Shown in pieces: positions 1 through 20,377 of a DNA stretch of 20,377 nucleotides. Numbering within the stretch: position 1 is the stretch's first letter; the number at the start of each line of letters is the position of its first letter. The stretch covers positions 1 through 20,377 of IMG/VR virus record IMGVR_UViG_3300028414_001175. One strand, written 5' to 3'. The translations under genes and the position numbers were made by a program. Under the pieces are notes generated by a model. That model ran no database searches and was not told the origin of the DNA. It saw only the letters and a program-made list of their open reading frames with translations. Origin of the DNA: a virus.

Positions 1-38
1 AAATGTTCTTTGGAGCATTTACTTGGAAAAATTTATAA
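1..38 (+). CDS. 3' end of a probable upstream gene (partial)
   Basis: Frame 3 is open from the left edge to a TAA at 36-38 and would end in the residues [10 protein letters not shown]. The stop overlaps the first bases of the strong Shine-Dalgarno sequence of the next gene, a layout usual in tightly packed phage genomes. Too little is visible to name the product, and the frame choice is an inference: frame 1 is also open and runs into the PqqA-like ORF. Confidence 0.3.
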
Positions 39-42
39 GGAG
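37..42 (+). promoter_or_regulatory. Strong ribosome binding site for the pqqA-like gene
   Basis: AAGGAG lies six bases before the ATG at 49. It is the best Shine-Dalgarno match among the genes in the window and is the main reason for starting the PqqA-like peptide at 49, rather than reading it as the tail of a longer frame-1 protein. Confidence 0.7.
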
Positions 43-48
43 ACTATT

Positions 49-120
49 ATGTGGACTAAACCAACTTATGAAAATATAAGACTTGGATTTGAAATCACTA
101 TGTATTTTAGTGTTAGATAA
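49..120 (+). CDS. pqqA: PqqA-like PQQ precursor peptide (23 aa)
   Basis: This 23-codon ORF starts MWTKP and ends [13 protein letters not shown]. PqqA is the ribosomal peptide from which pyrroloquinoline quinone is made: the radical-SAM enzyme PqqE, helped by PqqD, joins a Glu and a Tyr side chain three residues apart. Here these are E15 and Y19, in the family arrangement E-x3-Y. Compared from memory with the 23-residue Klebsiella PqqA (MWKKP... RLGLEVTLYISNR), the length is the same, about half the positions are identical and most others conservative. A strong AAGGAG supports translation. No pqqB, C, D or E is visible, so host enzymes would have to process the peptide. Frame 1 stays open to the left edge, so a longer protein with a PqqA-like tail is not excluded. 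The stop lies one base from the convergent zinc-ribbon gene. Confidence 0.8.
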
Positions 121-121
121 C

Positions 122-409
122 CTATAACTTGCCAATAGGCGTAGAACTAGAAGCACTCATATTCCAAACTTGTTTCTTTTCTACGCCTTTCTTTTGAGCA
201 AATACTTTAGCATCACAGTTCTTACATACGTGAAAATAATTGTTACTTAGGCGGTTAGGATCCATACTTCCTCTAGCACGTTCAAACTCTGCATCACAGT
301 TGTCGCATCTAAACACACATATAGTATATTCGCGTGTATAGGTGTGTTCCTTGCCTGTTTTACTTTTGCGAACGTGCCGGCTTTGCTTTTTAAATTCTCT
401 TATAAACAT
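122..409 (-). CDS. Small zinc-ribbon protein, function unknown (95 aa)
   Basis: The 95-residue product from the ATG at 409 is basic at its N-terminus (FKKQSRHVRKSKTGK) and carries two CxxC knuckles, C35-x2-C38 and C62-x2-C65, spaced as in a zinc ribbon or treble-clef finger. The pattern recalls the zinc-binding part of some HNH-type or DNA-binding phage proteins, but no HNH or other catalytic motif is visible, so no function is assigned. The frame extends to a TTG at 439; I prefer the ATG because the TTG is a rare start and has no clear ribosome site. The ATG also lacks a good one. A TATAAT on the minus strand at 428-433 could be a -10 element, but I see no good -35. It is the only minus-strand gene in the window, convergent with pqqA and divergent from the Fe-S carrier gene. 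Confidence 0.7.
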   Translation of the reverse strand: MFIREFKKQSRHVRKSKTGKEHTYTREYTICVFRCDNCDAEFERARGSMDPNRLSNNYFHVCKNCDAKVFAQKKGVEKKQVWNMSASSSTPIGKL

Positions 410-441
410 AACTATATTTACATTAAGATTATAAAACAATA

Positions 442-471: not shown

Positions 472-846
472 ATGACATTATGTACACTAACTGACTCAGC
501 AAAACAACAAATAGACACTTTATGCAACGATCACGGGTGCTATGCTATTACACTAAACGTAAAGGGTGGTGGTTGCGCAGGATTTGAATATGAGTGGGGT
601 ACACTAGAATCACCTGATGATTTACAAGAGGGCGACGAAGTCCTAAAAACAGATAATAACTGTACCTTTGTAATTGGTGTGCATAGCACTATGTTTTTGG
701 TTGGTACAGAAATTAATTACAAAAAAGATATAATTGGATCTATGTTTGAAGTTAATAACCCTAATGCGCAATCAGCATGCGGTTGTGGTGTTAGTATAAA
801 CTTTGACAAGATGTTTGATCAAACACAAATACTGGAGCTAAAATAA
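472..846 (+). CDS. A-type Fe-S cluster carrier (IscA/SufA/ErpA family)
   Basis: This 124-residue protein has the length and signature of A-type carriers, which receive Fe-S clusters from a scaffold and pass them to apo-proteins. All three ligand cysteines are present: C35 in GGGCAGFEY, and C103 and C105 in SACGCGVSI, preceded by the family's NPNA motif. Which subfamily it belongs to cannot be told by eye. AAGG before the ATG serves as ribosome site, and a late promoter lies just upstream, so it is probably made with the structural proteins. It ends one base before the start of the giant fiber-like gene, suggesting coupled translation. It is most simply a host-derived auxiliary gene, either sustaining host Fe-S enzymes during infection or loading metal into a phage protein; both roles are inference. 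Confidence 0.88.
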   Translation: MTLCTLTDSAKQQIDTLCNDHGCYAITLNVKGGGCAGFEYEWGTLESPDDLQEGDEVLKTDNNCTFVIGVHSTMFLVGTEINYKKDIIGSMFEVNNPNAQSACGCGVSINFDKMFDQTQILELK

Positions 847-847
847 C

Positions 848-3800
848 ATGGCAAAGCAACAAATTGATATCGGCATTGAAGGTAACGACGGTACTGGCGA
901 TAGCATACGTGAGTCGTTTCGTAAAGTAAACGAAAACTTTCAAGAATTATATGCCGTTTTTGGTATTGGCGGGCAGATATCGTATACTGACCTAAACGAT
1001 ACACCAAACACTTATGAAGGTAGTGAGAATCAAGTTCCTTTAGTTAAATCAGACGGTAGCGGGATTAACTTTTTAGAGTTTGCATCAGATAATGCATTAG
1101 ACGGCGGCGCTGATACTATTGGATTTGATTATAGCGTTGACGGTAAAGTAGTTATTAGACAATTAGTATCAAGAGTAGCTAATGATCCTTTGCCAACATT
1201 AGACGCTCCGTTGAATGCTAGTTCATATCCAATTGGCAATGTAAGTGTAGATCCAACAGCACTACAACTTTTTAACGATGTTCATGGTACTGACTTTGAC
1301 ATTGGGTCTCTTGTAATTAATAAAGCATATGCTGATAGAAGTTATCAAGGAAAAAGTGTTGCAGGTAGCGGCATACGTATAGGTGACGAACCAACAACTA
1401 TTAGTCAGTATACACTAACAGCATCGGGTATCCTACAAGGCAATTTAAATATTACAGGACACGGGCTATCTGAAGCATTTACAGGTGCTAAATTTAAATT
1501 TACTTCGTCTGGTACTGATCCATTTGGCGTAGTAACAGGTTCTGATTATTATATTAGAGTCATAAACGAAAACACTATTGGTTTATATCCAACTGAAGAT
1601 GATGCTATTAACGCTACAGGAAGGATACTTCTAAGTGGAGGTACAGGATCATTTACAATTACTGATTCGGCGTACGATGCTTCATTAGAGGGCAACTGGT
1701 TAAGCAATGAAGCGTTGCCACGGAAATCTGTTGTGCGTAGACAAGGCGACAACATGGAAGGTGCTTTACACTTGTATGATCACCCTGGTGAAGTTGCAGG
1801 TAAAGGTACTCCAAATGGTCCAGACGACTTGCAAGCTGCAACAAAACTATATGTTGATAATGTTGCAGCAGTAAGTACAGTTAACCTTTATGTTAGTACA
1901 GACGGTGATGACTTACAAACATTTACCCCAGACGGTAAAGAAGGTCGTTCGCCAGGTTATGCATTTAGAACAATTAATGCAGCAGCACGTAAAGCAGAAG
2001 AATTAATTATTGCAGCAGTTCCCGAACCGGGTCCTTATCAACAAACAATGACGCATGGCGGAGGAGCTAATACCGCAACTATTACAACAGCAGGTATCAA
2101 TAGTCAAATAGCAGGTAGACAAGCAGCTAGAGATCTTATTGTTGCAAACAAAGAATTTGTTGCAAAAGAAGTAACGGCATATGTAGACGCAACATTTCCT
2201 TATTTTGCAGGAACATACAGTTTAGAAATTTGTCAACGTGATGTACAATTTATCTTAGATAGTGTTAGTTTAGACGCACTACTAGGTAATAACGCTAACT
2301 ATCTATCACGCTGGAGTGGCATACGTTATTATTCAAATGTTAGTGCGCAAAAAGCAATTGGTGTACAGCGTGTAGAAACATTAGCAGGACTTGAATATGC
2401 TAAGACTCTTGTAACACAATATATTTTAACAAATACAGCACCGCCAACATTATATCAATCTCGTGTTCCACAATTTATTGACGCTACTATAATTCCAGAT
2501 TCAAGTGCCGACGAAGTTATTGGTGCAAAAATGGATATTATTACAGGCATCATTAATAACGGAGTGTTCCAAGCGCCGCAAGTTGTTGACGGTCAAACAA
2601 CGTATAAAATTAATGCTTCAAACGGTAACCTAGGCTTTATTGATCAAGCTAACCCTGAAAACACAGATATAATTCCAGGTAAAGTTGTACGTGGTAAAAG
2701 TTCAGGTGCATTAGGTAGAATTGTTGACTATAGACAAGAATCGGGTGATAGACCAGTTGCTGTAGTAGAAACAGACGAAATTGAATTACAACTTTTAGAG
2801 CCAGTTGAATTTGAAATCGGAGAAGAATTAGAATATGGAAACTACCAAGTAGAAACACAAATTTCAATCAGAGTTGAATCAGGTATCTATTTAGAGGACT
2901 ATCCAATACGTGTGCCTAAAAACGTAAGTGTTAAAGGTGATGAATTTAGACGAGTAATTGTACGTCCAAAAAATCGTGTATCGCAATCACGTTGGGCAAG
3001 TACATTCTTTTATAGAGATGCAGAGTTTGACGGGCTTGTATTAGGCAAAACTAATATAGAAGCTATTAGTTTTGAACCGCAAACAGATTCTTTAAGAACA
3101 CCGGGTACATACACAGTAAGCACATGGACTAGTGATAAGCTAGGTAAAGATGCTGAATTTAGTATCGTCGTTGGTAGTGACGGTGCTATTGATAGTATCA
3201 CAATTACTAATAGCGGCGACCAATTTCAAAAGGGAGAACGTGTCACTGTACTAGATGCATCTCTTGGTAGCAATGGTGCAGCAAGTATATCATTTGTAGT
3301 TGATAGTGTACCAAACGGTATTCCTTATATAAATCCTTTAACTAATGCATGTGATGGTTATTTTGGTAACCACTACTTATTAAAACCAAACAAACTAAAA
3401 AATACAGGTCAAGGTTATGAAAACGTAGGTAAGTGGGAATCTAACGCACTTACAATGATTGACAACAGAGAATTTATTCAAGAACAAGTTGTAAATTATA
3501 TTGAAACTACATATCCTGCACTAGTAGGTACAGCACAATATTCAAGAACAAAATGTTTTAGAGACGCAGGATTAATTGTTGATGCACTTGTTAAAGACTT
3601 CCGCAACGGCGGCAACGAGTTTTCTCTTGAAGCACAAGGTGAATACTATGCAGGCGCTGTTGAAGTAGGAACAGAAACAGAAACAGTTGCTGGCATACAG
3701 CACATTTATACTGTAGCAAGTAAATTAATAATTGGCGAAAATCCAACTGAGCTTTACAACCAAGCAGGTGGCGGAGTATCTGATAGACAATATGCAGCAG

Positions 3801-6800
3801 ATTTGTTTAACGGTTCTGGAGAACCGCCGGCATGGACCGCTAATAACTTATATCGTTTAGGCAATGTTGTTAAATTTACAACTGGTTTGAATATAACAAC
3901 ATACTATACTCCAACTAAAGAACATACAGCAGGCGCAAATTTTGATGCAGCTGAAATTTCAGCAAACTGGAGAATTATTGACGGTCCAGACACAGTATTA
4001 CAAAACTTAATTAACACAGTTAAGTTTGCATTCAATAACGATTACAATCCGCCATTAAGAAATACAGAGATGGATGCGTTCTTAATGAACGATGCTACGA
4101 TTTTGCGTAACATGACTGTACAAGGACACGGTGGCTTTATGCTTGTACTTGATCCAGAAGGACAAGTACTTACTAAGTCTCCATATGTACAAACTGGTTC
4201 AAGTTTCTCAGCATCTGCAAACAAGCAGGCATTTAGAGGTGGCTTGTTTGTTGATGCGTTTGTTGGCAACTCAGCAGTGCAAGTTATAGAAAAAGTAGAC
4301 GGAAGTGCATTTAGACTAACTGTTAAAAGTTTAGGATCACAAGCAGAACCACAAGGGTTATTTGTAAGACGTCCTGAAACACCAAGTGCATTTTATGTAG
4401 ATGGTAGACGTTTCCAAGTTAACGCTGTTACTAATTACGATAAAGCAAATGGTACAGCAGATTTAATATTAGATCCTAGTTCAAACGGCGGCGTTGGATT
4501 TACTGGTGTTACAAGTGCATTAACAACAGGTATTGATTTAGACTCTGTTGGTACATTTGAATTTGATAGTGTAAAATGTGCTAGAGATACAGGATACATT
4601 CTAGATGGTATTGCAAAAGACGTAGCATTAGGTACCAACTATAATAGCGTGTATAACGGTCTTGCTTATCAAAGAGCAACAGGTGATTATGTACAAAGCA
4701 ATCAACAAAGCCAAACAACAAACGCAATTGCATTTGCAAAAGGGCAAGTACTTGCACTAGCACAAGTTGATGATAGCGTTACAGCTGAAACTAGAGTTAC
4801 AGCAGGATTTGACGAAGTTGTTGATATTATACAAAATGGCACAGTTAGTGTAAGTGAGCCAGGTGACGGAGTTGCAGATGCATTAACATTCCCTGCACCG
4901 GCTGTACTTCCAACTACAGATGCTGACGATGCTGCAACAAGATTACAAAATAACAAAACGTTCTTAGGTGCAGAAGTTGTTGCATTTGTAAATGCTAACA
5001 CGCCGCCTGCAGGATATGACAGTGTAAAATGTGCTAGAGATGTAAGATACATTGTTGATGCACTAACATACGATATACTTTATGGTGGTAATAGTGGTAC
5101 AGTAACTAATGCTCGTGCATACTTAGATGGTGCTGTAGCACAACTTCCCGTAGCACAACGAGCAGCAACAGCAGCGGCATATGTGCATTTAGCATCAGTG
5201 GTTGCAACAGTTCTTACAGATGTAACTGCAACACCAACAGTAACCCCTACCACAGGCAACACTGAAGTTCAAGACGCTTCTGGAAGCGCAGCAACAGCAA
5301 CTGAAACTGCTATTACAGATAGTTTGATTAACATTATTAAATTAACTGCTGAAAATGCAAACCTTAATGCTGTTCCTGATACAATTTTCCCAGCAGTAGA
5401 TACATTAGGCGTAAGTGCAGAATTAACAGACGCACATGATGATATTAATAACTCTAGAAAAGTAATTATTAATGCAACAGTACAAAGCGTTCCGGCACCA
5501 TTGCCTATTACATTACAAACAGCTGGTAATAGAAGTATACTAGGTAACGACTTTACACAAGTTAACGATTTAGGTTACGGCTTGGTTGCAAGTAATGGTG
5601 CGCTATCAGAGATGGTTAGTATGTTTACATATTACTGTCATGCTAGTTACTATTCAAAGAATGGTGCTGAGATTAGATCACTAACAGGTTCAAGTTGTTA
5701 TGGTGAGTTTGGTCTAGTAGCTGAAGGTAGTGATCCAAACGAAATTCCAGATTCAATACAATTGTATGAAGATATGACACAGCCAATGCGAGCGTTTGAT
5801 GTTGATGTTATCTTGTCCACAACTGGATTGTTAAATCTAACAGCAGGTGAAACATTAACACAGGCTATTACCGGTTCAACAGGAGAAGTTGCAGTTGCAA
5901 CAAGCACAACAGGCGGATCAAATGTTATATACGTAACAAATATTACCGGTGCATTTGATACAACCAATGAACTAACCGGTAGTGTAAGTGGCGCACTAGG
6001 TGCAGACAGTGTTCCAACAGCAATTGACGCAAATGGCTACGATAACTCAGTTGAAAAACTAGCGGTCTATGTTTACGATGCAAAAGATGTACCGTCAAAT
6101 AGATCAGAAGTTAACATATATCATCCATCTCGCCCAGCTTTTGCACGTTATGAAGTTGCCAACGCAGAAGTTGTGCAACACATAGTTGGTCAATATCCAG
6201 ACATTGACGGTGATCCAATTCAAACAGTGGCAGATGCCGGAGCAACTGGGTTTGACTTTACACTTACTAAAACAATTAATGGTGGATATCAAGTATCGGC
6301 AACATCAGCACAACTGGCAGCAACTTCAAATTATGATGTAGGTGATACTTTTGTAGTACCTGGTGACCAATTGGGTGGTGTAACTCCTGCAAACGATGCA
6401 ACAGTTACAGTAGACTCAGTAGCACTAGTAACAGGTGTAATTGAAACATTTAGCGTAACTGGTACAATAGCTGCTGAAGATAGTACTCCAATGAATAGCG
6501 GACAAGTTTACAAATTAAACTTTAGTACATCTGATGCGCAATTTAGTGCAAACGGACTATTAGAAATTGTACCGTTTAACACAAATATAGTTTACTACAG
6601 AAACCAAACACATATTATTAGTGACCTAGCTCGTCCAGATGTATTAACTATTCGTCCAAGTACAGCATTAACGTTTGATGAGAATCCAGGCTTTGTTTAT
6701 AGAAGTATTAGTTTCTTAACAAGTGACAGTATTGGTGACGAGTTACCTGCTAATACTTCACAAGCAGGTCTTGATAGCACTTACGACTTTATTAGACTAA

Positions 6801-9640
6801 CTGTAAATGCAGCAAAAGCTCAAGAGGTAATTGGAAATATTACAGACGGTGGTGTAGCACTCACAGGAGGTACTACAAAAGGTGGCACAGCAGGCGATAC
6901 TACAATAGCAGTACAACCTTGTGATGCAAACGAAATCTTTAGACTTAACAATAATGCAAGAACTCCTACATCAAGTAGACCTGCAGGATGGACAGTTGAT
7001 AGTTTAACTACCGAAGCTCCGATTATTACTTGGGATGGTAAAAAGCATTATGTATTCAACTATCGAGGAGTAGAAGGAACAACAGTTGTAGAAGGAAGTG
7101 AGTCAAACGATTACGCTATTGTTGACTTAGTTGATTATGAAACAATTAACCCAACTAATGCAACAGGGATTAATAGTACAGTTGTATTAGGCTCTGAACT
7201 TGTTACACTTAGAGGCGGTTTGAAAAATGGCGCAACAGGTAGTGTTACTGTTAACATTAGTACATGTCGTGCAACAGGACACGACTTCTTAGATATTGGC
7301 ACAGGCGGATTTAACTCAAGTAACTATCCAAATGTTATCTTTGGTGAGCCAGGAGAAAAGAAGGAATCTAACGAAGTTGTTGAAAAAGGCAAAGGTCGAG
7401 TATTTTATGTAAGTACAGATCAAAACGGTATCTTTAGAGTTGGTAGATTCTTTAGTGTAGACCAAGGTACTGGTACAGTTACATTTAGTGCATCACTTGC
7501 ACTTTCAGATGTTGACGGACTAGGCTTTAAGCGTGGTGTTGTTATTACTGAATTTAGTACAGACACAGCAATGACTGATAATGCATCAGATACTGTACCA
7601 ACAGAAAGTGCAATACGTGGTTATGTAAACAGACGCTTGGGTTACGATGTAACAGGTGCTCCTGTAGCTAATAAATTAGGGCCAGGTGTACTTGCTCCTA
7701 ACGGTGCTGTCCCAATGACAGACGATTTGAATGCAGCTAACAATACAATTACAAACGTAAAAGCACCTATATCAGCGTCAGACGTTGCTACTAAAGCATA
7801 TGTTGATAGTGCAAGCGGTTCTTTAGATACATTGGATGACCTACGAGACAATGAAATTAATGATGTTGCAGAAGCACAACTTCTAGTTACAACTGGATAT
7901 AAGAAAATTATTGTAAGTGCTGGATCACTTGTAGGTGGCGGGTTTGCTGTTGGTGATGCAATTACAGGATCTATAACAGGAGCAACTGGAGCCATTGTTG
8001 ATTATAAAGATGGTATTGTAGGTATTGAAGGCGACATTGTTGAAATTATTTACACACCAACAAGTGGTGAGTTCAGTGACGGCAAACCGGCGAGTGGACC
8101 GGCAGCTGATGTTATTACAGCATTGGGTGGCAAGCAAGGACAAATAGTAGATGGACCAATTGATGAATGGGCAAACGGTGTATGGAATGCAGCAAGCGAC
8201 ATTATTGCTTCTGTAAATAGAGAATCAGATGACTCTTATGCAACTCATCGTAGGACAGTATTTAACTTACAAATTAATCCTGGAGCAATTGTTAACAGTG
8301 ATATTAGTGGAACAGCACAAATTTCACAAACTAAACTAAATCTAAACGCAGCAACTACAAGAGTCGATGCTACAAGTATTGCACAAGCAGACTTAGGTAG
8401 TGCAGCGTTTGATGATGCTAAATTTGAAATCACTGATGGTTGGGTAACACTTAAAGGTGGTGCTGTTTCTTTAGCTGATATTGAACAAATTGCTACAGAT
8501 AGTGTGATAGGACGAGATGCAGCTGGTAATGGCGAAGTTAGTGCAGTTTCATTTAATACTGTAGTTGTTGAAGGTACTGGACTTGTAGACGCAGACTTTA
8601 ATTCTGAACTAACATCAGTTGCTGATCCTGGTCAAGCACTAATTAAAACTGGTGCAGGATCATATAGCGTTTCTAACGTAACTTCAACTGGTGAAGTTAA
8701 TTCAATTGTTAAGACAACTGCTTCAGGTAAAGTGCAAGCCAACTCGTTAATACTAGGCGGTGATGCAAGTTACGAAGTATTAAGTTTAGACACACTAACA
8801 CTAAATGTTAAAACACCATCACAGGGTTTAATTTTTACAGCAGTAGGCGGCTCAGGCGCAGGAACTCCAAGTGCAACATATCCTAATATGCTAATAAAAG
8901 GTAGTGTAGGTATTGGTGGCACTAATATTACTGAAAGTTCTTTACAAGGTACTTCTAACTTTAATGGTGAAAAAGTACTTGGCGTTGATTGGATGTACAG
9001 TAGCTTTATTGAAGCACCAGGTGAAAAAGGTGCGGCAAGTACAGGAATAGCAATTGGTGCAAACACAGGTAAAACAACAACTGGCCAAATTGGTATAGTT
9101 GTTGCTAACAGTGGAACAAGTTCTAGTGTTGCTCCAATGATTTTTGATTCAAGCGGTGCAAAGCCAGACTTAGACAATACATATAACATCGGTACATCTA
9201 CACTAAAATATTCAAATGTATATGCATCATACTTCCGCGGTACAGCTACCGAAGCATACTATGCTGACTTAGCAGAAAACTATGAAGCTGATGCAGGATA
9301 CGAGCCAGGTACTGTACTTGTATTTGGAGGCGAAAAAGAAGTTGCAATGACTGACACGCATAACGATCATAGAGTAGCAGGTGTTGTTTCTACTAATCCT
9401 GCATACTTGATGAACTCACACCAAGAAGCAGAGTTTGTTTGCCCAGTTGCAATGCAAGGTAGAGTTCCTTGTAAAGTAATTGGTAAAGTTGCTAAAGGTG
9501 ATATGCTTGTAACAAGTGCAATTCCAGGGTTTGCTATTGTTAACAATAATGCGGCGCCGGGCAGAATTGTTGGTAAGGCACTTGAAAATAAAACAGACAA
9601 TGACAAAGGCGTTATTGAAGTTGTAGTAGGTAAACACTAA
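848..9640 (+). CDS. Giant modular tail-fiber/adhesin-like virion protein (2930 aa)
   Basis: The ATG follows GGAG (834-837). In order: an N-terminal module (residues about 1-36, NDGTGDSIRESFRKVNENF) shared with the genes at 9770 and 18004; a fiber region with KAYADRSYQG near 160 and KLYVDN near 335; a beta-helix-like stretch near 670-710 (SGIYLEDYPIRVPKNVSVKG); four helical KCxRD modules with cysteines at 462, 903, 1244 and 1395; a conserved patch near 1560-1633 (GNRSILGNDFTQVNDLGYG); a segment near 2184-2237 (GIFRVGRFFSVDQGTGTVTF); and a C-terminal domain from about 2795 (YADLAENYEADAGYEPG) to the end. I associate these blocks with large structural proteins of marine T4-like phages. The C-terminal domain resembles terminal domains of phage fibers that may aid folding or self-cleave, but I see no proven catalytic residues. 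There is no signal peptide or membrane segment. Probable role: a tail- or baseplate-attached fiber contacting the host. The frame is intact throughout. Confidence 0.85.
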   Translation: MAKQQIDIGIEGNDGTGDSIRESFRKVNENFQELYAVFGIGGQISYTDLNDTPNTYEGSENQVPLVKSDGSGINFLEFASDNALDGGADTIGFDYSVDGKVVIRQLVSRVANDPLPTLDAPLNASSYPIGNVSVDPTALQLFNDVHGTDFDIGSLVINKAYADRSYQGKSVAGSGIRIGDEPTTISQYTLTASGILQGNLNITGHGLSEAFTGAKFKFTSSGTDPFGVVTGSDYYIRVINENTIGLYPTEDDAINATGRILLSGGTGSFTITDSAYDASLEGNWLSNEALPRKSVVRRQGDNMEGALHLYDHPGEVAGKGTPNGPDDLQAATKLYVDNVAAVSTVNLYVSTDGDDLQTFTPDGKEGRSPGYAFRTINAAARKAEELIIAAVPEPGPYQQTMTHGGGANTATITTAGINSQIAGRQAARDLIVANKEFVAKEVTAYVDATFPYFAGTYSLEICQRDVQFILDSVSLDALLGNNANYLSRWSGIRYYSNVSAQKAIGVQRVETLAGLEYAKTLVTQYILTNTAPPTLYQSRVPQFIDATIIPDSSADEVIGAKMDIITGIINNGVFQAPQVVDGQTTYKINASNGNLGFIDQANPENTDIIPGKVVRGKSSGALGRIVDYRQESGDRPVAVVETDEIELQLLEPVEFEIGEELEYGNYQVETQISIRVESGIYLEDYPIRVPKNVSVKGDEFRRVIVRPKNRVSQSRWASTFFYRDAEFDGLVLGKTNIEAISFEPQTDSLRTPGTYTVSTWTSDKLGKDAEFSIVVGSDGAIDSITITNSGDQFQKGERVTVLDASLGSNGAASISFVVDSVPNGIPYINPLTNACDGYFGNHYLLKPNKLKNTGQGYENVGKWESNALTMIDNREFIQEQVVNYIETTYPALVGTAQYSRTKCFRDAGLIVDALVKDFRNGGNEFSLEAQGEYYAGAVEVGTETETVAGIQHIYTVASKLIIGENPTELYNQAGGGVSDRQYAADLFNGSGEPPAWTANNLYRLGNVVKFTTGLNITTYYTPTKEHTAGANFDAAEISANWRIIDGPDTVLQNLINTVKFAFNNDYNPPLRNTEMDAFLMNDATILRNMTVQGHGGFMLVLDPEGQVLTKSPYVQTGSSFSASANKQAFRGGLFVDAFVGNSAVQVIEKVDGSAFRLTVKSLGSQAEPQGLFVRRPETPSAFYVDGRRFQVNAVTNYDKANGTADLILDPSSNGGVGFTGVTSALTTGIDLDSVGTFEFDSVKCARDTGYILDGIAKDVALGTNYNSVYNGLAYQRATGDYVQSNQQSQTTNAIAFAKGQVLALAQVDDSVTAETRVTAGFDEVVDIIQNGTVSVSEPGDGVADALTFPAPAVLPTTDADDAATRLQNNKTFLGAEVVAFVNANTPPAGYDSVKCARDVRYIVDALTYDILYGGNSGTVTNARAYLDGAVAQLPVAQRAATAAAYVHLASVVATVLTDVTATPTVTPTTGNTEVQDASGSAATATETAITDSLINIIKLTAENANLNAVPDTIFPAVDTLGVSAELTDAHDDINNSRKVIINATVQSVPAPLPITLQTAGNRSILGNDFTQVNDLGYGLVASNGALSEMVSMFTYYCHASYYSKNGAEIRSLTGSSCYGEFGLVAEGSDPNEIPDSIQLYEDMTQPMRAFDVDVILSTTGLLNLTAGETLTQAITGSTGEVAVATSTTGGSNVIYVTNITGAFDTTNELTGSVSGALGADSVPTAIDANGYDNSVEKLAVYVYDAKDVPSNRSEVNIYHPSRPAFARYEVANAEVVQHIVGQYPDIDGDPIQTVADAGATGFDFTLTKTINGGYQVSATSAQLAATSNYDVGDTFVVPGDQLGGVTPANDATVTVDSVALVTGVIETFSVTGTIAAEDSTPMNSGQVYKLNFSTSDAQFSANGLLEIVPFNTNIVYYRNQTHIISDLARPDVLTIRPSTALTFDENPGFVYRSISFLTSDSIGDELPANTSQAGLDSTYDFIRLTVNAAKAQEVIGNITDGGVALTGGTTKGGTAGDTTIAVQPCDANEIFRLNNNARTPTSSRPAGWTVDSLTTEAPIITWDGKKHYVFNYRGVEGTTVVEGSESNDYAIVDLVDYETINPTNATGINSTVVLGSELVTLRGGLKNGATGSVTVNISTCRATGHDFLDIGTGGFNSSNYPNVIFGEPGEKKESNEVVEKGKGRVFYVSTDQNGIFRVGRFFSVDQGTGTVTFSASLALSDVDGLGFKRGVVITEFSTDTAMTDNASDTVPTESAIRGYVNRRLGYDVTGAPVANKLGPGVLAPNGAVPMTDDLNAANNTITNVKAPISASDVATKAYVDSASGSLDTLDDLRDNEINDVAEAQLLVTTGYKKIIVSAGSLVGGGFAVGDAITGSITGATGAIVDYKDGIVGIEGDIVEIIYTPTSGEFSDGKPASGPAADVITALGGKQGQIVDGPIDEWANGVWNAASDIIASVNRESDDSYATHRRTVFNLQINPGAIVNSDISGTAQISQTKLNLNAATTRVDATSIAQADLGSAAFDDAKFEITDGWVTLKGGAVSLADIEQIATDSVIGRDAAGNGEVSAVSFNTVVVEGTGLVDADFNSELTSVADPGQALIKTGAGSYSVSNVTSTGEVNSIVKTTASGKVQANSLILGGDASYEVLSLDTLTLNVKTPSQGLIFTAVGGSGAGTPSATYPNMLIKGSVGIGGTNITESSLQGTSNFNGEKVLGVDWMYSSFIEAPGEKGAASTGIAIGANTGKTTTGQIGIVVANSGTSSSVAPMIFDSSGAKPDLDNTYNIGTSTLKYSNVYASYFRGTATEAYYADLAENYEADAGYEPGTVLVFGGEKEVAMTDTHNDHRVAGVVSTNPAYLMNSHQEAEFVCPVAMQGRVPCKVIGKVAKGDMLVTSAIPGFAIVNNNAAPGRIVGKALENKTDNDKGVIEVVVGKH
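4565..4588 (+). repeat. Near-identical 24-nt repeat, copy 1 (DSVKCARD)
   Basis: These 24 bases recur at 5018-5041 with a single C/T difference, inside the third KCxRD module of the giant protein. Both copies encode DSVKCARD. The near-identity at DNA level suggests recent internal duplication or gene conversion. Confidence 0.85.
5018..5041 (+). repeat. Near-identical 24-nt repeat, copy 2 (DSVKCARD)
   Basis: Second copy of the repeat at 4565-4588, in the fourth KCxRD module, 453 nt downstream of the first. The sequence after it stays similar at protein level (RYIVDALTYD against GYILDGIAKD). Confidence 0.85.
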
Positions 9641-11389: not shown

Positions 11390-14300
11390 ATGGCAAATAG
11401 ATTTCCCCTAGTACTTGATACTACAGATGGCAATAAAATTAAGGAACTACCAGATTCTGACAATCTCGACTTGCGTACTAATTCAATTGTTAACGTACAA
11501 GACATAACGTCATTGGGAACAATCGATGCAACAGTAATAAAAGTTAACGGACAAAAATTAGTTGCACAAGCATTTGCTGACTTAACAGATACTCCGAGCT
11601 CTTTTATTGGATCACCTAACTATTTTGTAAAAGTAAAAGCGGACGGTACAGGATTAGAATATAGACCGTTAAGTGATTTAGGTAATATTGAAATCGATAC
11701 TATTACTGTTGATACTAGTATTGTTCCGAGTACAACAAATGTAGGTAATGTAGGTACAGAAGCATTAAAGTTTAATGAAATTGTTGCAACTACACTAAAA
11801 GGAAACTTAGTTTCGTACAACGAAGAAATTGTATTTGATGCTAGTACTGGAAAAGTAAGTTATGCATCACTACAAGGCGCTCCGCAATTTTTATCAGAAT
11901 TTTCAGACGATGTAGGATATTTACAAACTGCTGATTTGAACGCACAAATAGCAGGATTGTTTGACGAAGGCGTACCTTTTGAATCAGATATTAAGGGCAG
12001 TGTTTTTGGTGATGACTCAACTGTAATAGTTGATGGTGTTGCTGGCAAAATACGCGGCGATATTGAATTTACTAGCGCAGGAAGTATCACAGGTGCAAGC
12101 AATATTGTTATTAGTGCTGCTACAACTGTCGACTTAGGAAATACAAAAGTAACCGGCGACATTTATCCAGATACTGCTGACACTAGGTCAGTAGGTACTA
12201 CAACTAATCCATTTGGTGAAGGACATTTTGATACAATGACTTCACAGACTGTTGTAACTAATACACTAAATTATGGTACAGGATTAGGCATTGCTGAAAT
12301 GACAGCAGCAACTGATCTTGAAATTACAGCAGGCAATAGAGTAAAAATAAATGGTAATGTTCCGTTTAGACTGTCAGAAGTTAGTAGCACTAATTTACCT
12401 GCGATTGCAGCAGAAAACGGCGATTTGATTTATAACTCAACAACTAACAGAGTTGTTATGTATCAAAACGGTGCATGGAAGGATGTAAACGGTAATGTAG
12501 AAGCAACAGCAGGAACATCAAACTTTAATGATGTTGTAATTGCAGGTGACTTAACTATTACTGGCGATACTACAGAAATTGAAACAACTAATACTGCAAT
12601 TACAGATAATGTTATTGTATTAAACAAAGGTGAAACTGCCGCTGGTGTAACATTAGGCACATCTGGTATTGAAGTTGAACGAGGAACAGAAGCTAACAAA
12701 ACATTTGTATGGGACGAAGCAACTGACAAATGGACATTAGGTATAGAAACACTGGTTGCAGCAACATTTGAAGGTAACGTTACAGGTAGTATAACAGGTG
12801 ATACAGCAGGCACACATACTGGACCAGTTGTTGGTGACGTAACAGGTAATGCCGCAGGTGCGCACACAGGTACATTTGATGGCGACATGACTGGTAGTGT
12901 ATATGCTGACGATTCGGGTATATTAGTAGACGGTGTAAATGCTAAAATTATAGGTGATATTGAAACAGCAAGTTTAAGAACAAGTGAAGATAAAATTGCA
13001 CTTGGTGAAAACACAGGTGTAACTAACCAAGCGTATGGTGGAATAGCAATTGGACCATACGCTGGCACAACAGATCAAGATTCACAGGCAGTTGCAGTTG
13101 GTACTTCTGCTGGTAGAGAAAGACAAGGTGCTCAGGCTACAGCACTTGGACGTTACGCTGGACAAAATGATCAAGGTGTATCCGCAGTAGCAATTGGTAA
13201 TAGAGCAGGAAGAGAATCTCAGGGCGCTGATGCAATAGCAATTGGTCAATTAGCAGGTGAAACAAACCAAGCTACAAACTCAATTGTAATAAACGCAACT
13301 GGCGTTGCAGTAGAAAATACCACAGTAAGTAGTTTAGTAATTAAACCAGTACGTGATGCAGTTGGTACAACTGTAATGATGTACAACAATGCAAACGGCG
13401 AAGTAACACACACAGCAACACCAGGAACACTAGCAGCAAATATAGATCAAGCAACAGTAAATATTGGTGCAACAACAGCAACAGCAATTAATATTGGTAA
13501 TTCAGGTAGTACAACTACTATTGACGGCACTGTTAGTTTTTCAACTGCACTAGTTGCAAATAACATAACAGCTGACGACAGTATACAAATTACTACAGCA
13601 GTTGGTGCTAACAACGGTATTACACTTAATCCGCAAGGCACAGACACAAGTGTAAATATTACCGCAGACGCATTGCGTTTATTTGGAACACCAGTAACTG
13701 ACAACATTAAAGCAGTAGGCGGTCTTGAAGGTGATTTAACAGGTAGTGTGTTTGGCGACGACTCTGCTATGCTAGTTAATGGGCTAGACAGTAAACTTGT
13801 TGGAGATATTGATTCTGTAAATATACATGGACAAGCATTTAAAGCAGATACTATTGTTAACAATACTGGTACTACTTTAGATTTAACAGCGGCTGGCTTC
13901 TTGAACATAATCGGCGGCAACACTGACGCAGGTGTGTCTAATATTCAAATGGATAAGCAAGGCATTAACCATATAGAATTAAAAACAGAACCAGGTAACC
14001 CAACTGACCCAACTGACTATGCAAGAGTTGCAATTAACGCAGGAACAAATGAAGGTGATGTGAGAATTGGTACTCCAACATCAACAAGAAATCAAGTTGT
14101 AGAAGTATATAATGCAACAGTTTATGGTACGCTTGTAGGAACTATACAAGGTTCAATTGTTGGTGATGTTAAAGGTAGTATTGTAGCAGATGACTCAACT
14201 GTAATAATTGATGGTGTCGCTGGTAAAGTTTTAGGACCAATAAGCAAGATAGTTGGCGATGTGCAACAAATTAGTGGACCAGGAGAAATTAGTTTAGATA

Positions 14301-14568: not shown

Positions 14569-17500
14569 ATGAGTGAAAAAGAATATATTGTAAGTTTAAA
14601 CAAAGGTGTAAACTACGAAGCGTTCAATCAAGAAATGATTGCTTCCACAGGAGGCGGTGATATTCCTGGACGCTCAGTTGACGTTGCTAATGCAAGACCT
14701 TTGTCACAGCGTAATACGCACTATATGTTAACTAACGAAGAAGCAGCAAAACTAAGTAGTGATACTAGAGTTTTAGCAGTTGAATTGCGTCCTGATTTAC
14801 GTGATGACATTGATTTAGTACGTACTGCAACACAAACAGGCGACTTTACAAAAACTACACTAGACTACGGTAATTTTGTTAACTGGGGTCTACGCAGGAT
14901 GAACGAAGTATCAAATCCATATACTGGTCCTAATGTTACAGGTGGATATGATTATACTTTAGACGGAACTGGTGTAGATATTGTTATTCAAGATAGTGGC
15001 GTCCAAGTAGACCATCCTGAATTTTATGATTATAACGGTACAAGTCGTGTACAACAAATTAACTGGTACACCGAAAGCGGACTAGCAGGTTCTCAAAGTG
15101 TTGACCACTATAGAGATTATGACGGTCACGGAACACACGTTGCAGGTATTGCATCCGGCTTAACATACGGTTGGGCTAAAGGTGCAAGAATTTATGCTGT
15201 AAAAGTATCAGGACTAGAAGGATCAAGTGACAGCGGCACAGGTATTCCTGTTTCAGATTGTTTTGATGTTATCAAAGGCTGGCATGCAAATAAGCCAGTT
15301 GATCCGGCTACAGGACAAAAACGTCCAACTATTGTTAATATGAGTTGGGGCTACGGCGGATACTTTACCGGTATTTCAGGAGGATCATATAGAGGTACAA
15401 GTTTTTCAGGAGCAGCAAGACGTCCAGACTACGGAATGGTAGGTTCATTTACAGGAATTGGTTATAGATATGTATCTAGAGTTGCTTCTGTTGACGTTGA
15501 TGTGCAAGAATTAATTGATGCTGGAGTACACGTTGTTATTGCAGCTGGCAATTCAAGACAAAAAATTGATGTTGACGGAGGTCTTGATTACGATAACTAT
15601 TTTACTAGAACATCAACTGGCACTACAGAATACTATTATAATAGAGGCGGCTCGCCGTTTTCAACACAAGCACATATTGTTGGTAATATCGATACTGATA
15701 TCAATTCAAATGGATTAGAGCAAAAAGCAGAGAGTTCTGAAACAGGTCCAGGTGTTACTGTATACGCTCCCGGTACAAACGTTATGAGTTCTACCAGCAC
15801 TATTAATAGGTGGGGGTCCGGTGACGGTCCTTATCCTGGAAATAGTAGCTTTACTATAACTAATATCAGTGGAACTAGTATGGCAAGTCCACAAGTTGCA
15901 GGATTATTGGCGTTATATACACAACTTAATCCGTCTGCAACTCCAGAGCAAGGATTAGCGTTTATTAATACAAGTTCAGGAAGTGATAAAATTTATACAA
16001 CGGGACTTGATAACGACTATACAGATTCAAGAAGTATTCTAAGTGGTAACAATAGATTTGCTTTTAATAAATTTAATAGTGCAACGCAAATGACTATTGG
16101 TCAAACAACTGAAACAACAGAACTTGTTCCGGCAACATACGCACTAACAGTTGATAGTAATACAGTTAACGAATCTGGTACATTTACAGTAACTCTAACA
16201 ACAACAAATGTTGCAACTGGAACATCAATACCTTATACAATTAGTGGAGTAACAAGTGAAGATATTGCCGACGAGCAATTGTCTGGAATATTTACAATAA
16301 GCAATAATACAGCTTCAAAAACTTATACTGTTACAGCAGATGAAACTACTGAAGGTACAGAAACATTTGAACTTTCTTTAACTAATATTAGTGAAAGTGT
16401 AAGTGTTACATTTAACGACACAAGTACAACTCCGGTAGCAAGTTATACATTGGATGTAGGCGGTGTAGCTAGTATTAACGAAGGATCAAATTTAACTGTT
16501 ACACTAACAACAGTAAATGTTACTGATGATACATTAGTACCTTATACGATTAGCGGTACAGGAATCACAACAGCTGATATCGGCGGTAACGCACTAACCG
16601 GTGACTTTACTGTTATTAACAATACTGCAACACTCATCCTTCCAATTACGTCAGATGCTACTACTGAAGGTTTAGAGGCGATGACTATCGGACTAAACAA
16701 TGGTGAAAGCTCAGTTAGTGTAAATATTAATGATACAAGTGTAGCAGGTGCAGTATCTTATACATTAACAAGTAATGTAACTAATGTTGACGAAGGCGGA
16801 AGTGCAACGGTTACATTAACAACAACAAATATTGATGACGCAACTTCTATACCATATACAATTACTGGTGTTGATTCGGCTGATATTAGTGGAGAAAGTT
16901 TAACAGGCAACTTTACTGTTACTAACAATACCGCAAATCTTATACTTACACTTGCAGAAGACTCTGTAACTGAAGGCGCTGAGACATTAGTTGTTACACT
17001 AAACAATGGTCAATCTAATGTTAGTATTACAATTAATGATACAAGCACAGCAGCAGCTCCAACGTTTGCGTTGTCAGGTGATGTTAGTGCAGTCAACGAA
17101 GGCGGCACAGTTTCAATTACGTTAACTACTACAGCAACAGATGATGCGACAACTGTACCATATACAATTACTGGTATTGACGCAAACGATTTAACAGCAG
17201 GAAGTATTACAGGCGACTTTACTATTACGTCAAATACAGATACATTGGTGTTTACATTTGCTGAAGACGTTGCAACCGAAGGCACAGAAACTATGAATCT
17301 TGCATTAGATAACGGACAAGATAATATTAGTATTACCGTTAACGATACAAGTATTGCGCCTGCTGCTACATATGCATTAGCAAATAGTGCAAACACTGTT
17401 AATGAAGGCGACTCGTTGACTATTACATTAACAACAGAAAACGTAGATGATGGTACATCTGTACCATATACAATCTCTGGCGTACTTCCAGCTGATATTG

Positions 17501-17991
17501 ATGATAATTTATTAACAGGTAACTTCACAGTTAATAGTGACACTGCGTCACTAGTATTACCAATTACAGCTGACCAAACAACAGAAGGTTCAGAAACATT
17601 ACAATTAGCATTAGACAATGGTGAAGCTACAACAACTGTTACTATTAATGATACTAGCACAACACCTGCAGCAGATTATACAATTACTGTTACAGCAAGC
17701 AGTTCAAGTGATTATACACTAAGTGGAACTGATAGAGGTGGTGCAGTAAATGGAACTGACCCAGGATTAAACTTCAATAATGGCGATATTGTTGACTTTA
17801 ATGTTAATGCTAGTGGACACCCGTTTTGGATTAAGACTGCTGCTGTTACAGGCACAGGAAGTCAAGCAACTGGCGTAACTAATGGCGGTACACAAAATGG
17901 TACGGTTAGATGGATAGTTGGCAGTACTGGTACATTCTATTACATCTGTCAATACCACGGTTCAATGGTTGGCACAATTACAGTTTCATAA
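14569..17991 (+). CDS. Subtilisin-like protease fused to Calx-beta repeats and a cupredoxin-like domain (1140 aa)
   Basis: Residues 1 to about 80 resemble an I9-type prosegment (EYIVSLNKG, then VLAVELRPD). The S8 peptidase core spans about 125-505 with a complete triad: D142 (QDSGVQVDHP), H187 (DGHGTHVAGI) and S437 (SGTSMASPQVAG), plus the oxyanion Asn N328 (AAGNS). Residues about 522-1033 hold five Calx-beta-like repeats, each with a (V/I)(N/D)E motif near its start and ending in NDTS (616, 721, 823, 925, 1027). The C-terminal 105 residues look like a cupredoxin: H1084 and C1127-x2-H1130-x2-M1133, the ligand spacing of amicyanin-type blue copper sites. There is no signal peptide or membrane anchor, so secretion would be by release at lysis or by being part of the virion. 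AGGA (14557-14560) is a possible ribosome site. Possible roles are attack on host surface proteins or processing of fibers; neither is shown by the sequence. Confidence 0.9.
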   Translation: MSEKEYIVSLNKGVNYEAFNQEMIASTGGGDIPGRSVDVANARPLSQRNTHYMLTNEEAAKLSSDTRVLAVELRPDLRDDIDLVRTATQTGDFTKTTLDYGNFVNWGLRRMNEVSNPYTGPNVTGGYDYTLDGTGVDIVIQDSGVQVDHPEFYDYNGTSRVQQINWYTESGLAGSQSVDHYRDYDGHGTHVAGIASGLTYGWAKGARIYAVKVSGLEGSSDSGTGIPVSDCFDVIKGWHANKPVDPATGQKRPTIVNMSWGYGGYFTGISGGSYRGTSFSGAARRPDYGMVGSFTGIGYRYVSRVASVDVDVQELIDAGVHVVIAAGNSRQKIDVDGGLDYDNYFTRTSTGTTEYYYNRGGSPFSTQAHIVGNIDTDINSNGLEQKAESSETGPGVTVYAPGTNVMSSTSTINRWGSGDGPYPGNSSFTITNISGTSMASPQVAGLLALYTQLNPSATPEQGLAFINTSSGSDKIYTTGLDNDYTDSRSILSGNNRFAFNKFNSATQMTIGQTTETTELVPATYALTVDSNTVNESGTFTVTLTTTNVATGTSIPYTISGVTSEDIADEQLSGIFTISNNTASKTYTVTADETTEGTETFELSLTNISESVSVTFNDTSTTPVASYTLDVGGVASINEGSNLTVTLTTVNVTDDTLVPYTISGTGITTADIGGNALTGDFTVINNTATLILPITSDATTEGLEAMTIGLNNGESSVSVNINDTSVAGAVSYTLTSNVTNVDEGGSATVTLTTTNIDDATSIPYTITGVDSADISGESLTGNFTVTNNTANLILTLAEDSVTEGAETLVVTLNNGQSNVSITINDTSTAAAPTFALSGDVSAVNEGGTVSITLTTTATDDATTVPYTITGIDANDLTAGSITGDFTITSNTDTLVFTFAEDVATEGTETMNLALDNGQDNISITVNDTSIAPAATYALANSANTVNEGDSLTITLTTENVDDGTSVPYTISGVLPADIDDNLLTGNFTVNSDTASLVLPITADQTTEGSETLQLALDNGEATTTVTINDTSTTPAADYTITVTASSSSDYTLSGTDRGGAVNGTDPGLNFNNGDIVDFNVNASGHPFWIKTAAVTGTGSQATGVTNGGTQNGTVRWIVGSTGTFYYICQYHGSMVGTITVS
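16132..17667 (+). repeat. Five Calx-beta-like repeats, period about 306 nt
   Basis: The NDTS motif that ends each unit is encoded at 16414, 16729, 17035, 17341 and 17647, so the last four units are exactly 102 codons apart and the first interval is 105. Shared marks are TVTLTTTN, (I/V)PYTI(S/T)G, GxFT, and TEGxE(T/A) followed by LxNG(Q/E). Such beta-sandwich repeats usually act as stalks or Ca-binding adhesion domains. Confidence 0.85.
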
Positions 17992-18896: not shown

Positions 18897-20377
18897 ATGT
18901 CTAAATTATGGAATATACCAACAGGTACTAGGTACCGTGTACTAGTCGAACGTAGTGCAGTAAACATACTACTTCCGCTTTCGTCTGTTGCTAACATAGA
19001 AGTTGAACAAATAGGCGGCGACTTACCTTCCGGTACTCGTTTAGAAGGTAATTACTTAACAGGTACTGTTTATGAAGTTGCATATGACACTACGTTTACA
19101 TCAGTATTTAGAGCGTCAACAGACGATGAATGGCAAGACTGTACAATAGAGTTTGTTGTTACCGGACCTGATGATCCACAATGGACAACTGTACCAGGAT
19201 TATTAAATGTAGGATCAAATGACGCACTTTTTATCTTAGACAGTGAAATAATAGATTATCAATTAACAGCAACAGACACCGATCTAAGCGCAGGCGACGA
19301 ATTAACATATTTCATTGCTGACGGTGACGGCGTACTCCCTCCAGGAATCACATTATCCGAAGACGGCAAACTTACAGGTACTACAGAACCTCTTCTTAGT
19401 CTAGACAAACGATACGTGGGTGGAGGATATGATATGTCTCCGTTTGCAGGATTGCCAATGGATTATGCTGCACTAAGTTCAAACGGGTATGCTAGTTTTT
19501 ATTATGACACAGTTGACTACGGTTATAATGAGCCTACTTCTAATCCACGTAAATTAAATCGTTATTATCCATTTGCTGTTACAGTAACAGACGGAGAAAA
19601 CTTTGTAAGACGCGAGTTCAAAATATACCTAGTAGGTGATGATTACTTAAAAGCAGACAACACATTAATGCAGTCTGCTACAGGTATATTTACTGCTGAC
19701 GTAACAAATGTAAGAACACCAACTTGGATTACTCCAAGAGATTTAGGTTTTAAACGTGCAGCCAATTATACTACGTTATACTTAGACATTATAGATAATT
19801 GGACACTAGAAGGCGTTGTAGTTTACACTCTTGACGATGTTAACGATGACGGATCACCAAGTGAACTTCCGCCAGGCATGGTACTTGATAGTCAAAATGG
19901 AGAAATTGCCGGGCGTATACCATATCAGCCAGCTATTACACAAAATTATAAATTCTCAGTAAAAGCAACACGTTTGACTACAGATTTAGAAACTGTATCA
20001 ATTTTTGGTAATTATTACGAAGATGTATTATTAGGAAATAATAATATAAAAATCTATAAAATAGACCTAACAGGTGACTTAGATGGCGTAAACGATTTAT
20101 TTGAATTAGTTAATAGAAACATACTGTTAGGTAATAGGCAATACAAAGTTACAAACGTAGATGATCGAAATCGAGATTATGATGTAATTTACTTCGATGA
20201 CACCCTTGCACCTAGTATTAATTTAATATTAAGTAGAACTGCAACAACAGGCACTGACTATATGTTTGTAAGCAGATTAAATGAAACAGAAAAACAAAAG
20301 TATGCTGGTAGAACCCTTAAATTTAGCGAAACTGAAAAATATAAGATAAGCACAATTACTCCGTATATTGAATGGGA
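18897..20377 (+). CDS. Virion-type protein with Ig/cadherin-like repeats (partial, runs off the window)
   Basis: The ATG follows AAGGAAG (18882-18888). The frame is open for 493 codons to the right edge, so the C-terminus is missing. It begins MSKLWNIPTGTRYRVLVERS. Around residues 115-160 is a dystroglycan/cadherin-like or putative-Ig (He_PIG type) unit: QLTATDTD, then LPPGITLSEDGKLTGT. A second one appears near 324 (LPPGMVLDSQNGEIAGRIPY, then YKFSVKA). Between them are Tyr/Asp-rich stretches (ASFYYDTVDYGYNEP). No signal peptide or catalytic motif is visible. Such repeats are common in adhesive surface and tail-fiber proteins, so a fiber or baseplate-decorating protein is likely. Its late promoter and hairpin suggest that expression is restricted to late infection. 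Confidence 0.8.
   Translation, partial: MSKLWNIPTGTRYRVLVERSAVNILLPLSSVANIEVEQIGGDLPSGTRLEGNYLTGTVYEVAYDTTFTSVFRASTDDEWQDCTIEFVVTGPDDPQWTTVPGLLNVGSNDALFILDSEIIDYQLTATDTDLSAGDELTYFIADGDGVLPPGITLSEDGKLTGTTEPLLSLDKRYVGGGYDMSPFAGLPMDYAALSSNGYASFYYDTVDYGYNEPTSNPRKLNRYYPFAVTVTDGENFVRREFKIYLVGDDYLKADNTLMQSATGIFTADVTNVRTPTWITPRDLGFKRAANYTTLYLDIIDNWTLEGVVVYTLDDVNDDGSPSELPPGMVLDSQNGEIAGRIPYQPAITQNYKFSVKATRLTTDLETVSIFGNYYEDVLLGNNNIKIYKIDLTGDLDGVNDLFELVNRNILLGNRQYKVTNVDDRNRDYDVIYFDDTLAPSINLILSRTATTGTDYMFVSRLNETEKQKYAGRTLKFSETEKYKISTITPYIEW

Follow-up and report, generated by a model that had tools for sequence, protein, structure and literature searches.

A free-standing pqqA gene in a phage with T4-type tail genes may supply the consumable precursor of PQQ to host enzymes

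The window analyzed here, that is, the whole stretch of 20,377 bases from a virus record, opens with the last codons of a gene that we call cyt2, and the start of a free-standing gene for the precursor peptide PqqA lies 10 nt downstream of it (table 1). Beyond pqqA are a convergent gene and a gene for an A-type Fe-S carrier; the latter did not reach the cut-offs of the narrower models (ErpA, SufA, and IscA) and served as a landmark for finding relatives of the window. This carrier has at least 594 viral relatives, and PqqE, too, belongs to the Fe-S enzymes. T4 gp9/10-type and other tail proteins are encoded within the window, which bears out the phage location assumed in an earlier sequence-only reading of this DNA. 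Positions 848–9640 form a single 2930-aa open reading frame with a T4 gp9/10-like N-terminus, and a 1140-aa protein among the tail genes (14569–17991) contains a subtilase domain (PF00082, 102 bits) followed by repeats, as seen by eye. The protein encoded at 18897–20375, with an Ig-like He_PIG domain, had no relative in the phage collection.

Table 1. Features at the left end of the window
Feature	Position	Strand	Evidence or remark
cyt2, 3′ end (last 11 full codons and stop at 36–38)	1..38	+	C-terminus identical to that of relative L161; invariant residues; fold of the relative's protein
Shine-Dalgarno sequence AAGGAG	37..42	+	Six bases 5′ of the ATG; overlaps the cyt2 stop codon (36–38)
pqqA, PqqA precursor peptide, 23 aa	49..120	+	PF08042 and TIGR02107 above curated cut-offs
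Glu15 codon GAA	91..93	+	First residue of the PqqE-crosslinked pair
Tyr19 codon TAT	103..105	+	Second residue of the PqqE-crosslinked pair
Convergent gene, 105 aa from TTG, CxxC pairs, zinc-ribbon-like by eye	122..439	-	Marks the 3′ boundary of the cassette
A-type Fe-S carrier (ErpA/IscA/SufA-like)	472..846	+	PF01521, 55.2 bits; TIGR00049, 80.1 bits

The sequence-only reading had identified the 23-codon frame with its strong AAGGAG as PqqA and had suggested a search against the Pfam family. This search gave a match to PF08042 with an E-value of 3.6e-10 and a score of 40 bits, the cut-off being 21.1, and the NCBI equivalog model TIGR02107 matched at 6.3e-13 (48.2 bits, cut-off 20); thus, the identification was confirmed by both profile models, far above their cut-offs. 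PHROGs gave no match for the window peptide. The same reading had named the C-terminus of an unrelated longer protein as an alternative. The pqqA frame is open up to the window edge, but in L161, a relative that is 90% identical to the window over its first 900 bases, the frame is closed by a stop lying 32 codons upstream within the preceding gene, and an in-frame stop was present upstream in all 119 viral pqqA loci among the matches listed (median distance of 9 codons), so the C-terminal tail of a longer protein was rejected. Moreover, a Shine-Dalgarno-like site preceded 113 of the 119 viral pqqA starts, compared with 1,173 of 15,943 plus-strand ATGs (7.4%) in the same loci. Promoter and terminator scans around pqqA produced counts near those of shuffled sequence (11 vs. 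10.6) or modestly higher (7 vs. 4.0) and were left unused. With both cut-offs passed, a conserved Glu-x-x-x-Tyr, and a short free-standing peptide that has its own start and ribosome-binding site, the stretch at 49–120 is, as judged from its sequence, a genuine and complete PqqA gene, and a chance match is dismissed.

We addressed the conservation of the peptide by two scans of viral contigs. The first used a pattern at the DNA level that covered leader and core of PqqA, with Glu fixed and Tyr free, and the second left both residues free; at least 119 stretches were obtained by each, and because the matches listed do not comprise all of those found, the 119 loci described here represent a lower bound. 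Most of them were first recovered through the Glu-fixed pattern, and the Glu-free scan added two loci (L201 and L202), both with Glu. Among the listed viral loci whose translation fits the pattern free at both positions, Glu was conserved in 119 of 119 and Tyr in 119 of 119, and two loci outside the second pattern (L111 and L153) also have both residues. The 119 loci, duplicates included, correspond to 83 distinct genes and 54 distinct peptides. Across the 83 distinct genes, Tyr19 is encoded by TAT (44) or TAC (39) and Glu15 by GAA (82) or GAG (1), the peptide is 23 residues long in 78, and the final residue is R (42), K (31), V (5), S (4), or Y (1). Of the PqqA features singled out in the sequence-only reading, the E15/Y19 pair proved invariant, with none of the free variation that would speak against PqqA, and the length of 23 held in 78 of 83 genes, but the final Arg turned out not to be fixed. 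Two peptide types were present among the 119 listed loci, RFG (84) and RLG (35), and the window peptide belongs to the latter. For seven distinct viral pqqA genes reached via the neighboring cyt2 gene, the recognition of which still demanded W, K, P, E, and Y, pS was 0.49 and pN was 0.10 over all pairs.

In the viral loci searched, no other pqq gene was found with pqqA. When 206 viral loci, of which the pqqA patterns contributed 121, phage records 6, and the cyt2 search 79 (some contigs being shared), were searched with tblastn for pqqB, C, D, and E and a PQQ dehydrogenase, no hit was obtained, whereas 28 bacterial pqqA loci used as a control gave pqqB in 26, pqqD in 25, pqqE in 23, and pqqC in 18–19. 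These results agree with the earlier suggestion that only the peptide would be supplied, and the arrangement of a PQQ biosynthesis operon, with pqqB, C, D, and E alongside, was not found in the viral loci. The PQQ-dehydrogenase query matched 0 of the 28 control loci, which are short stretches around pqqA, and for this gene the search of whole records weighs more: a PQQ propeller domain over the cut-off was found in 0 of 54 pqqA-bearing records, with one sub-threshold PQQ_2 match (G021). PqqE gave a match in 0 of the 48 whole pqqA-bearing viral contigs searched, the longer ones of the 121. A terminase match was present in 24 of these 48 contigs, 23 of them over the cut-off, many contigs being fragments. 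Neither a pqqBCDE operon nor other bacterial genes were seen around pqqA in the window or in L161.

The gene order behind cyt2 was variable. A cyt2 relative was encoded in 117 viral stretches, the best 80 of which were kept; two of these end too soon, and among the 78 readable loci (best 80 of 117) pqqA was located behind cyt2 in 19 and was absent from 59. In 15 of the 19, pqqA lies within ~12 nt of cyt2, and in 4 it lies ~140 nt behind; in L271, L272, L274, and L275, the ~140 bases between cyt2 and pqqA perhaps contain a small open reading frame. Between the cyt2 stop and the nearest block conserved in the convergent gene there were 93 bases in the window but 4 or 10 bases in L002–L006, which are close relatives by the Fe-S carrier gene. 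Thus, pqqA is a presence/absence cassette of 80–90 bases, as counted by eye. In a search of 50 whole contigs with the PqqA model, 0 of 45 cassette-less relatives gave a match, and the five positive controls were all found. Likewise, pqqA was found in 0 of 50 Fe-S-carrier relatives, a set that has no positive control within it and shares one record with the preceding search.

In L161, pqqA is situated behind two mutually overlapping genes, cyt1 (427 aa) and cyt2 (408 aa), the products of which have signal-peptide-like N-termini, as seen by eye, and each a CxxCH motif. When 24 viral cyt2 and 6 viral cyt1 proteins were aligned, the haem motif, H182, H183, H245, H316, H318, and M398 proved invariant. 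In their arrangement as HH, H, HxH, and M, these residues resemble the copper ligands of peptidylglycine monooxygenase (PHM), which we take to be residues 107, 108, 172, 242, 244, and 314; the resemblance is one of pattern, not of residue-wise superposition. A structure model of the relative's cyt2, of medium confidence (pLDDT 65, pTM 0.61), gave 29 Foldseek hits at E ≤ 0.001, all of which were PHM or dopamine beta-hydroxylase (DBH), the best at 8.3e-7; the Z-scores were 15.4 for DBH and ~14 for PHM, and the first unrelated row scored 8.1. Because no Pfam copper-monooxygenase match was obtained for cyt2 at E 0.01, we call it PHM-like in fold only. By its model, and as a statement about fold, cyt2 resembles the PHM/DBH copper monooxygenases. 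Sequence searches of the PDB with the neighbor proteins gave weak matches, mostly to cytochromes, and neither cyt1 nor cyt2 had a match in PHROGs. A cyt2 relative was present in 8 of the 54 pqqA-bearing records, one of them weak and partial and many of the records being fragments. The cyt1-cyt2-pqqA arrangement was also observed in a 340-kb relative of the window (G001, IMGVR_UViG_3300024228_000554, 339,794 bases) that likewise has T4-type tail genes. At this locus (L248), genes at 3988–5397, 6450–8522, 12308–13384, and 15260–16165, around cyt1-cyt2-pqqA, encode T4 gp15, a CHASE2-guanylate cyclase, a curlin-repeat protein, and CsgG, a curli-like export set in a phage.

Isolated phages also carry the gene. 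In tblastn searches of 50,697 phage records (E limit 10), two different PqqA queries returned the same 12 records: nine isolates recorded on Methylophilales/Methylophilaceae (four Melnitz, Venkman, MEP301, MEP401, MEP402, and P19250A), the uncultured podovirus MW202481, and two records named "Acinetobacter phage MD-2021a" (CAKLQF020000010.1 and CAKLQH020000055.1). In CAKLQF020000010.1, pqqB, C, and D and a radical SAM gene come directly after pqqA, ppk and fur are also present, and the record looks like a bacterial chromosome. The TIGR02107 cut-off was passed by six of six peptides, from five isolate genomes (Melnitz, Venkman, MEP301, MEP402, and P19250A) and MW202481. In the records of these same five isolates and MW202481, pqqA is unannotated, there being no feature or an opposite-strand open reading frame at its position; the expectation of the sequence-only reading that the gene may be unannotated in related phages was thus realized in the five isolate records examined. 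Annotation may miss phage pqqA because the gene is ~23 codons long. The main text of the papers on MEP301 and MEP401/402 does not contain the term "pqq", and in the Melnitz paper PQQ is mentioned a single time, as an additive to the host medium. The pqqA-bearing isolates are of different kinds (Kyanoviridae, Zobellviridae, and others). The five isolates are like the window in that pqqA is present and no pqqB–E was found in the 5–8 kb around it; across their whole genomes there was no PQQ propeller match and, in any of the five, no cyt2 match. They differ from the window in that the peptide, where read, is of RFGFE type, the phages belong to other families, and pqqA is unannotated.

One scan of bacterial and archaeal genomes, for which the pattern was kept close to the peptide type of the window, yielded 28 contigs, of which 27 are titled Proteobacteria, mostly Gammaproteobacteria lineages, and one is a Verrucomicrobiales MAG that has no PqqE match in its genome and may be mis-binned. 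Several titles, as we read them, point to seawater surveys. In this pattern-limited scan, the window peptide was identical at 21 of 23 residues to the PqqA of L207, L222, and L229 alike, and the His22 of L207 is common to a related phage type (L125/L252). Models of PqqE and of PQQ alcohol dehydrogenase each exceeded the cut-off in 27 of the 28 candidate genomes; PQQ-dehydrogenase matches (E ≤ 0.001, many below the cut-off) numbered 35 in the L207 genome, 56 at most, and 3–5 in five genomes. Relatives of cyt2 were found in 22 of the 28 genomes, with up to 24 per genome. Ranked by E-value, the L207 genome was second for cyt2 at 55% identity, the first being at 53%, and it held the best cyt1 match (80%) among 21 genomes searched. 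In host genomes behind L203–L230, cyt2-like proteins often occur in longer frames (~560–650 aa), and the one that was scanned, from L245, has an AhpC/TSA domain in front.

Three phage groups were compared for agreement between the host indicated by PqqA and that indicated by cyt1, and one disagreed. Like the window's, the L286 group agrees with a single host group, in this case another one, with a QKIR-type PqqA and an 82% cyt1, whereas the L271 group has a PqqA like that of the L203/L208 hosts and a cyt1 closest to the L207 genome (both from cyt1 regions in nine genomes). In a pqqB tree, the position of L207 was an open fork that also included Porticoccaceae, Pseudohongiellaceae, and other rows, and for this reason we name no host family. 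From these similarities, we propose that the host might be a PQQ-using gammaproteobacterium, probably marine. The candidates already have a pqqA of their own. In three host regions chosen for visible closeness (L341–L343), cyt1 relatives of 37–40% identity were located within ~160 bases of a PQQ dehydrogenase gene. The idea that the close host relatives of cyt1 (~66–80%) stand beside PQQ dehydrogenase genes was not borne out in the regions read.

A phage location and a peptide that matches bacterial PqqA at 21 of 23 residues are what would be expected of an auxiliary gene, and we consider it probable, in line with the sequence-only reading, that phage pqqA is an auxiliary metabolic gene that would supply the consumable substrate of PQQ synthesis, and nothing else, to the enzymes of the host. 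One PqqA is consumed for each PQQ, and the enzymes are catalytic and persistent. Being consumed one for one, PqqA is the part of the pathway that needs continuous manufacture, and because the enzymes are catalytic, a 72-base gene would be the cheapest means of holding the pathway open. In the course of infection, PqqA would probably be translated from the downstream end of an operon, behind two haem c/copper-monooxygenase-like proteins. The phage peptide would then be bound by the PqqD and PqqE of the host, and its Glu15 and Tyr19 would be crosslinked by them. Subsequent enzymes of the host, PqqB and PqqC among them, would complete PQQ, and the cofactor would be loaded into the PQQ-dependent dehydrogenases of the host, such that periplasmic oxidation might be kept going while host gene expression fails. 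We infer the expression of the gene, its recognition by host PqqE/PqqD, the rise in PQQ, and the benefit to the phage. In the portion of the literature consulted, the Glu and Tyr of PqqA are given as a reactive pair, likely brought to PqqE by PqqD (PMC10906245), and, according to excerpts of a study in Acetobacter pasteurianus, overexpression of pqqAB raised PQQ by 29% and the whole pqqABCDE cluster raised it eightfold; Gluconobacter strains cited there were improved by single genes, with pqqA second after pqqB (PMC7936290). As far as these excerpts go, extra precursor can help, but the enzymes can limit as well. Against the supply of PqqA as the function, the gene is accessory in its lineage, being absent from 59 of the 78 readable cyt2 loci (best 80 of 117), and the candidate hosts possess a pqqA themselves; against the link to a particular host, that link is one of sequence similarity, and the peptide ties among three candidates.

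The supply of precursor may be extended to the two genes in front of pqqA: two haem c-tethered PHM-type oxygenases would hydroxylate a periplasmic substrate, host PQQ dehydrogenases would oxidize the resulting alcohols, and phage PqqA would top up their cofactor. We hold this extension tentatively. It is favored by the position of pqqA behind cyt2 in 19 of the 78 readable loci (best 80 of 117), by the CxxCH and the HH, H, HxH, and M positions shared by cyt1 and cyt2, the latter positions resembling the PHM ligands in pattern, by the gap between the Z-scores of the cyt2 model for DBH (15.4) or PHM (~14) and the next unrelated structure (8.1), and by the abundance of both partners in candidate hosts, in which cyt2 relatives occur in 22 of 28 genomes (≤24 per genome) and PQQ-dehydrogenase matches reach 56; the 37–40% cyt1 relatives near PQQ dehydrogenase genes in the selected regions L341–L343 point the same way. 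However, the closest host relatives of cyt1 (~66–80%) are not beside such genes in the regions read, 59 of the 78 readable cyt2 loci (best 80 of 117) are without pqqA, a cyt2 relative was found in 8 of 54 pqqA-bearing records, many of them fragments, and in 0 of 5 isolates, and the cyt2 model is of medium confidence (pLDDT 65) with no Pfam copper-monooxygenase match. On a larger scale, it is conceivable, if somewhat doubtful, that T4-like phages carry a periplasmic oxidation module consisting of two secreted haem c-tethered copper hydroxylases and the PQQ precursor, the products of which are passed to the many PQQ dehydrogenases of the host, and that phages of several families independently took the smallest gene of the pathway, the only one whose product is consumed stoichiometrically.

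The encoding of the substrate alone would also be expected of a competitive ligand, and the phage peptide might thus act as a decoy or brake that occupies PqqD/PqqE and lowers PQQ synthesis in the host; in the part of the source seen, PqqD binds PqqA tightly, with a Kd of 0.39 µM (PMC10906245). We regard this as improbable, since the crosslinked residues are dispensable for a decoy, yet E and Y are invariant in the 119 of 119 loci listed, and the whole peptide, with 21 of 23 residues, resembles host substrates. The patchy presence of pqqA in the lineage might instead reflect a host fragment that was picked up by chance and is unused, which we consider rather less probable still: ribosome-binding sites precede 113 of 119 starts, pN is well below pS, no neighboring pqq gene was carried along, and phages from other families have pqqA as well. 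Contamination of viral contigs with bacterial DNA seems to apply to the two "Acinetobacter phage MD-2021a" hits, CAKLQF020000010.1 with its pqqB, C, D, and radical SAM gene; as a general explanation it is exceedingly improbable, because complete genomes of isolated phages carry pqqA, a terminase match was found in 24 of 48 pqqA contigs (23 over the cut-off), pqqB–E were found in 0 of 206 viral loci, and T4-type tail genes are present in the window and in its 340-kb relative.

If the supply of precursor is the function, viruses would steer how PQQ-dependent aquatic bacteria oxidize alcohols via a ribosomally made cofactor precursor, the gene of which is so small that annotation drops it, isolate genomes included. 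Phages would, moreover, be linked to PHM-like copper monooxygenases. A simple rule would be to supply the consumable and borrow the catalysts, and this rule is testable in cultured Methylophilales phage–host pairs. The copper-monooxygenase-like gene pair before pqqA in relatives, the PQQ-using gammaproteobacterial host candidates, and the prior reports of viral pqqA go beyond what the sequence-only reading contained.

Viral pqqA as such is already in print, as passages from two reports indicate. In the sections of a 2020 report on Lake Baikal that we drew on, the virus VP_266 has a PqqA gene, interpreted as an auxiliary metabolic gene that serves PQQ-dependent oxidation (PMC7678222), and in the retrieved text of a 2026 report on reservoir sediments, pqqA, pqqE, and pqqD are virus-encoded and listed as phosphorus-cycling genes (PMC13188868). 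For precursor-only pqqA in isolates, its breadth, and its pairing with PHM-like genes, no report was found in the open-access literature searched. The viruses of the reservoir sediments are like the window in that pqqA is virus-encoded; no peptide-level analysis was found in the retrieved text (PMC13188868). VP_266, as portrayed in the sections mentioned, is unlike the window in that it also carries methanol dehydrogenase and was assigned to methylotrophs (PMC7678222), whereas no PQQ propeller domain exceeded the cut-off in the 54 pqqA-bearing records studied here. The modeled cyt2 is like PHM and DBH in fold (Z 14–15) and resembles them in the pattern of its putative copper-ligand residues, and is unlike them in its N-terminal CxxCH haem motif, an identity of 12–16%, and an activity that is putative. 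The chromosomal PqqA peptides of L207, L222, and L229 and the window peptide are alike in length, leader, E-x-x-x-Y core, and 21 of 23 residues, whereas the chromosomal pqqA of L207 precedes pqqB, D, and E and the beginning of pqqC, as named by eye and, for PqqE, by model as well, and that of the window stands without them behind a phage gene.
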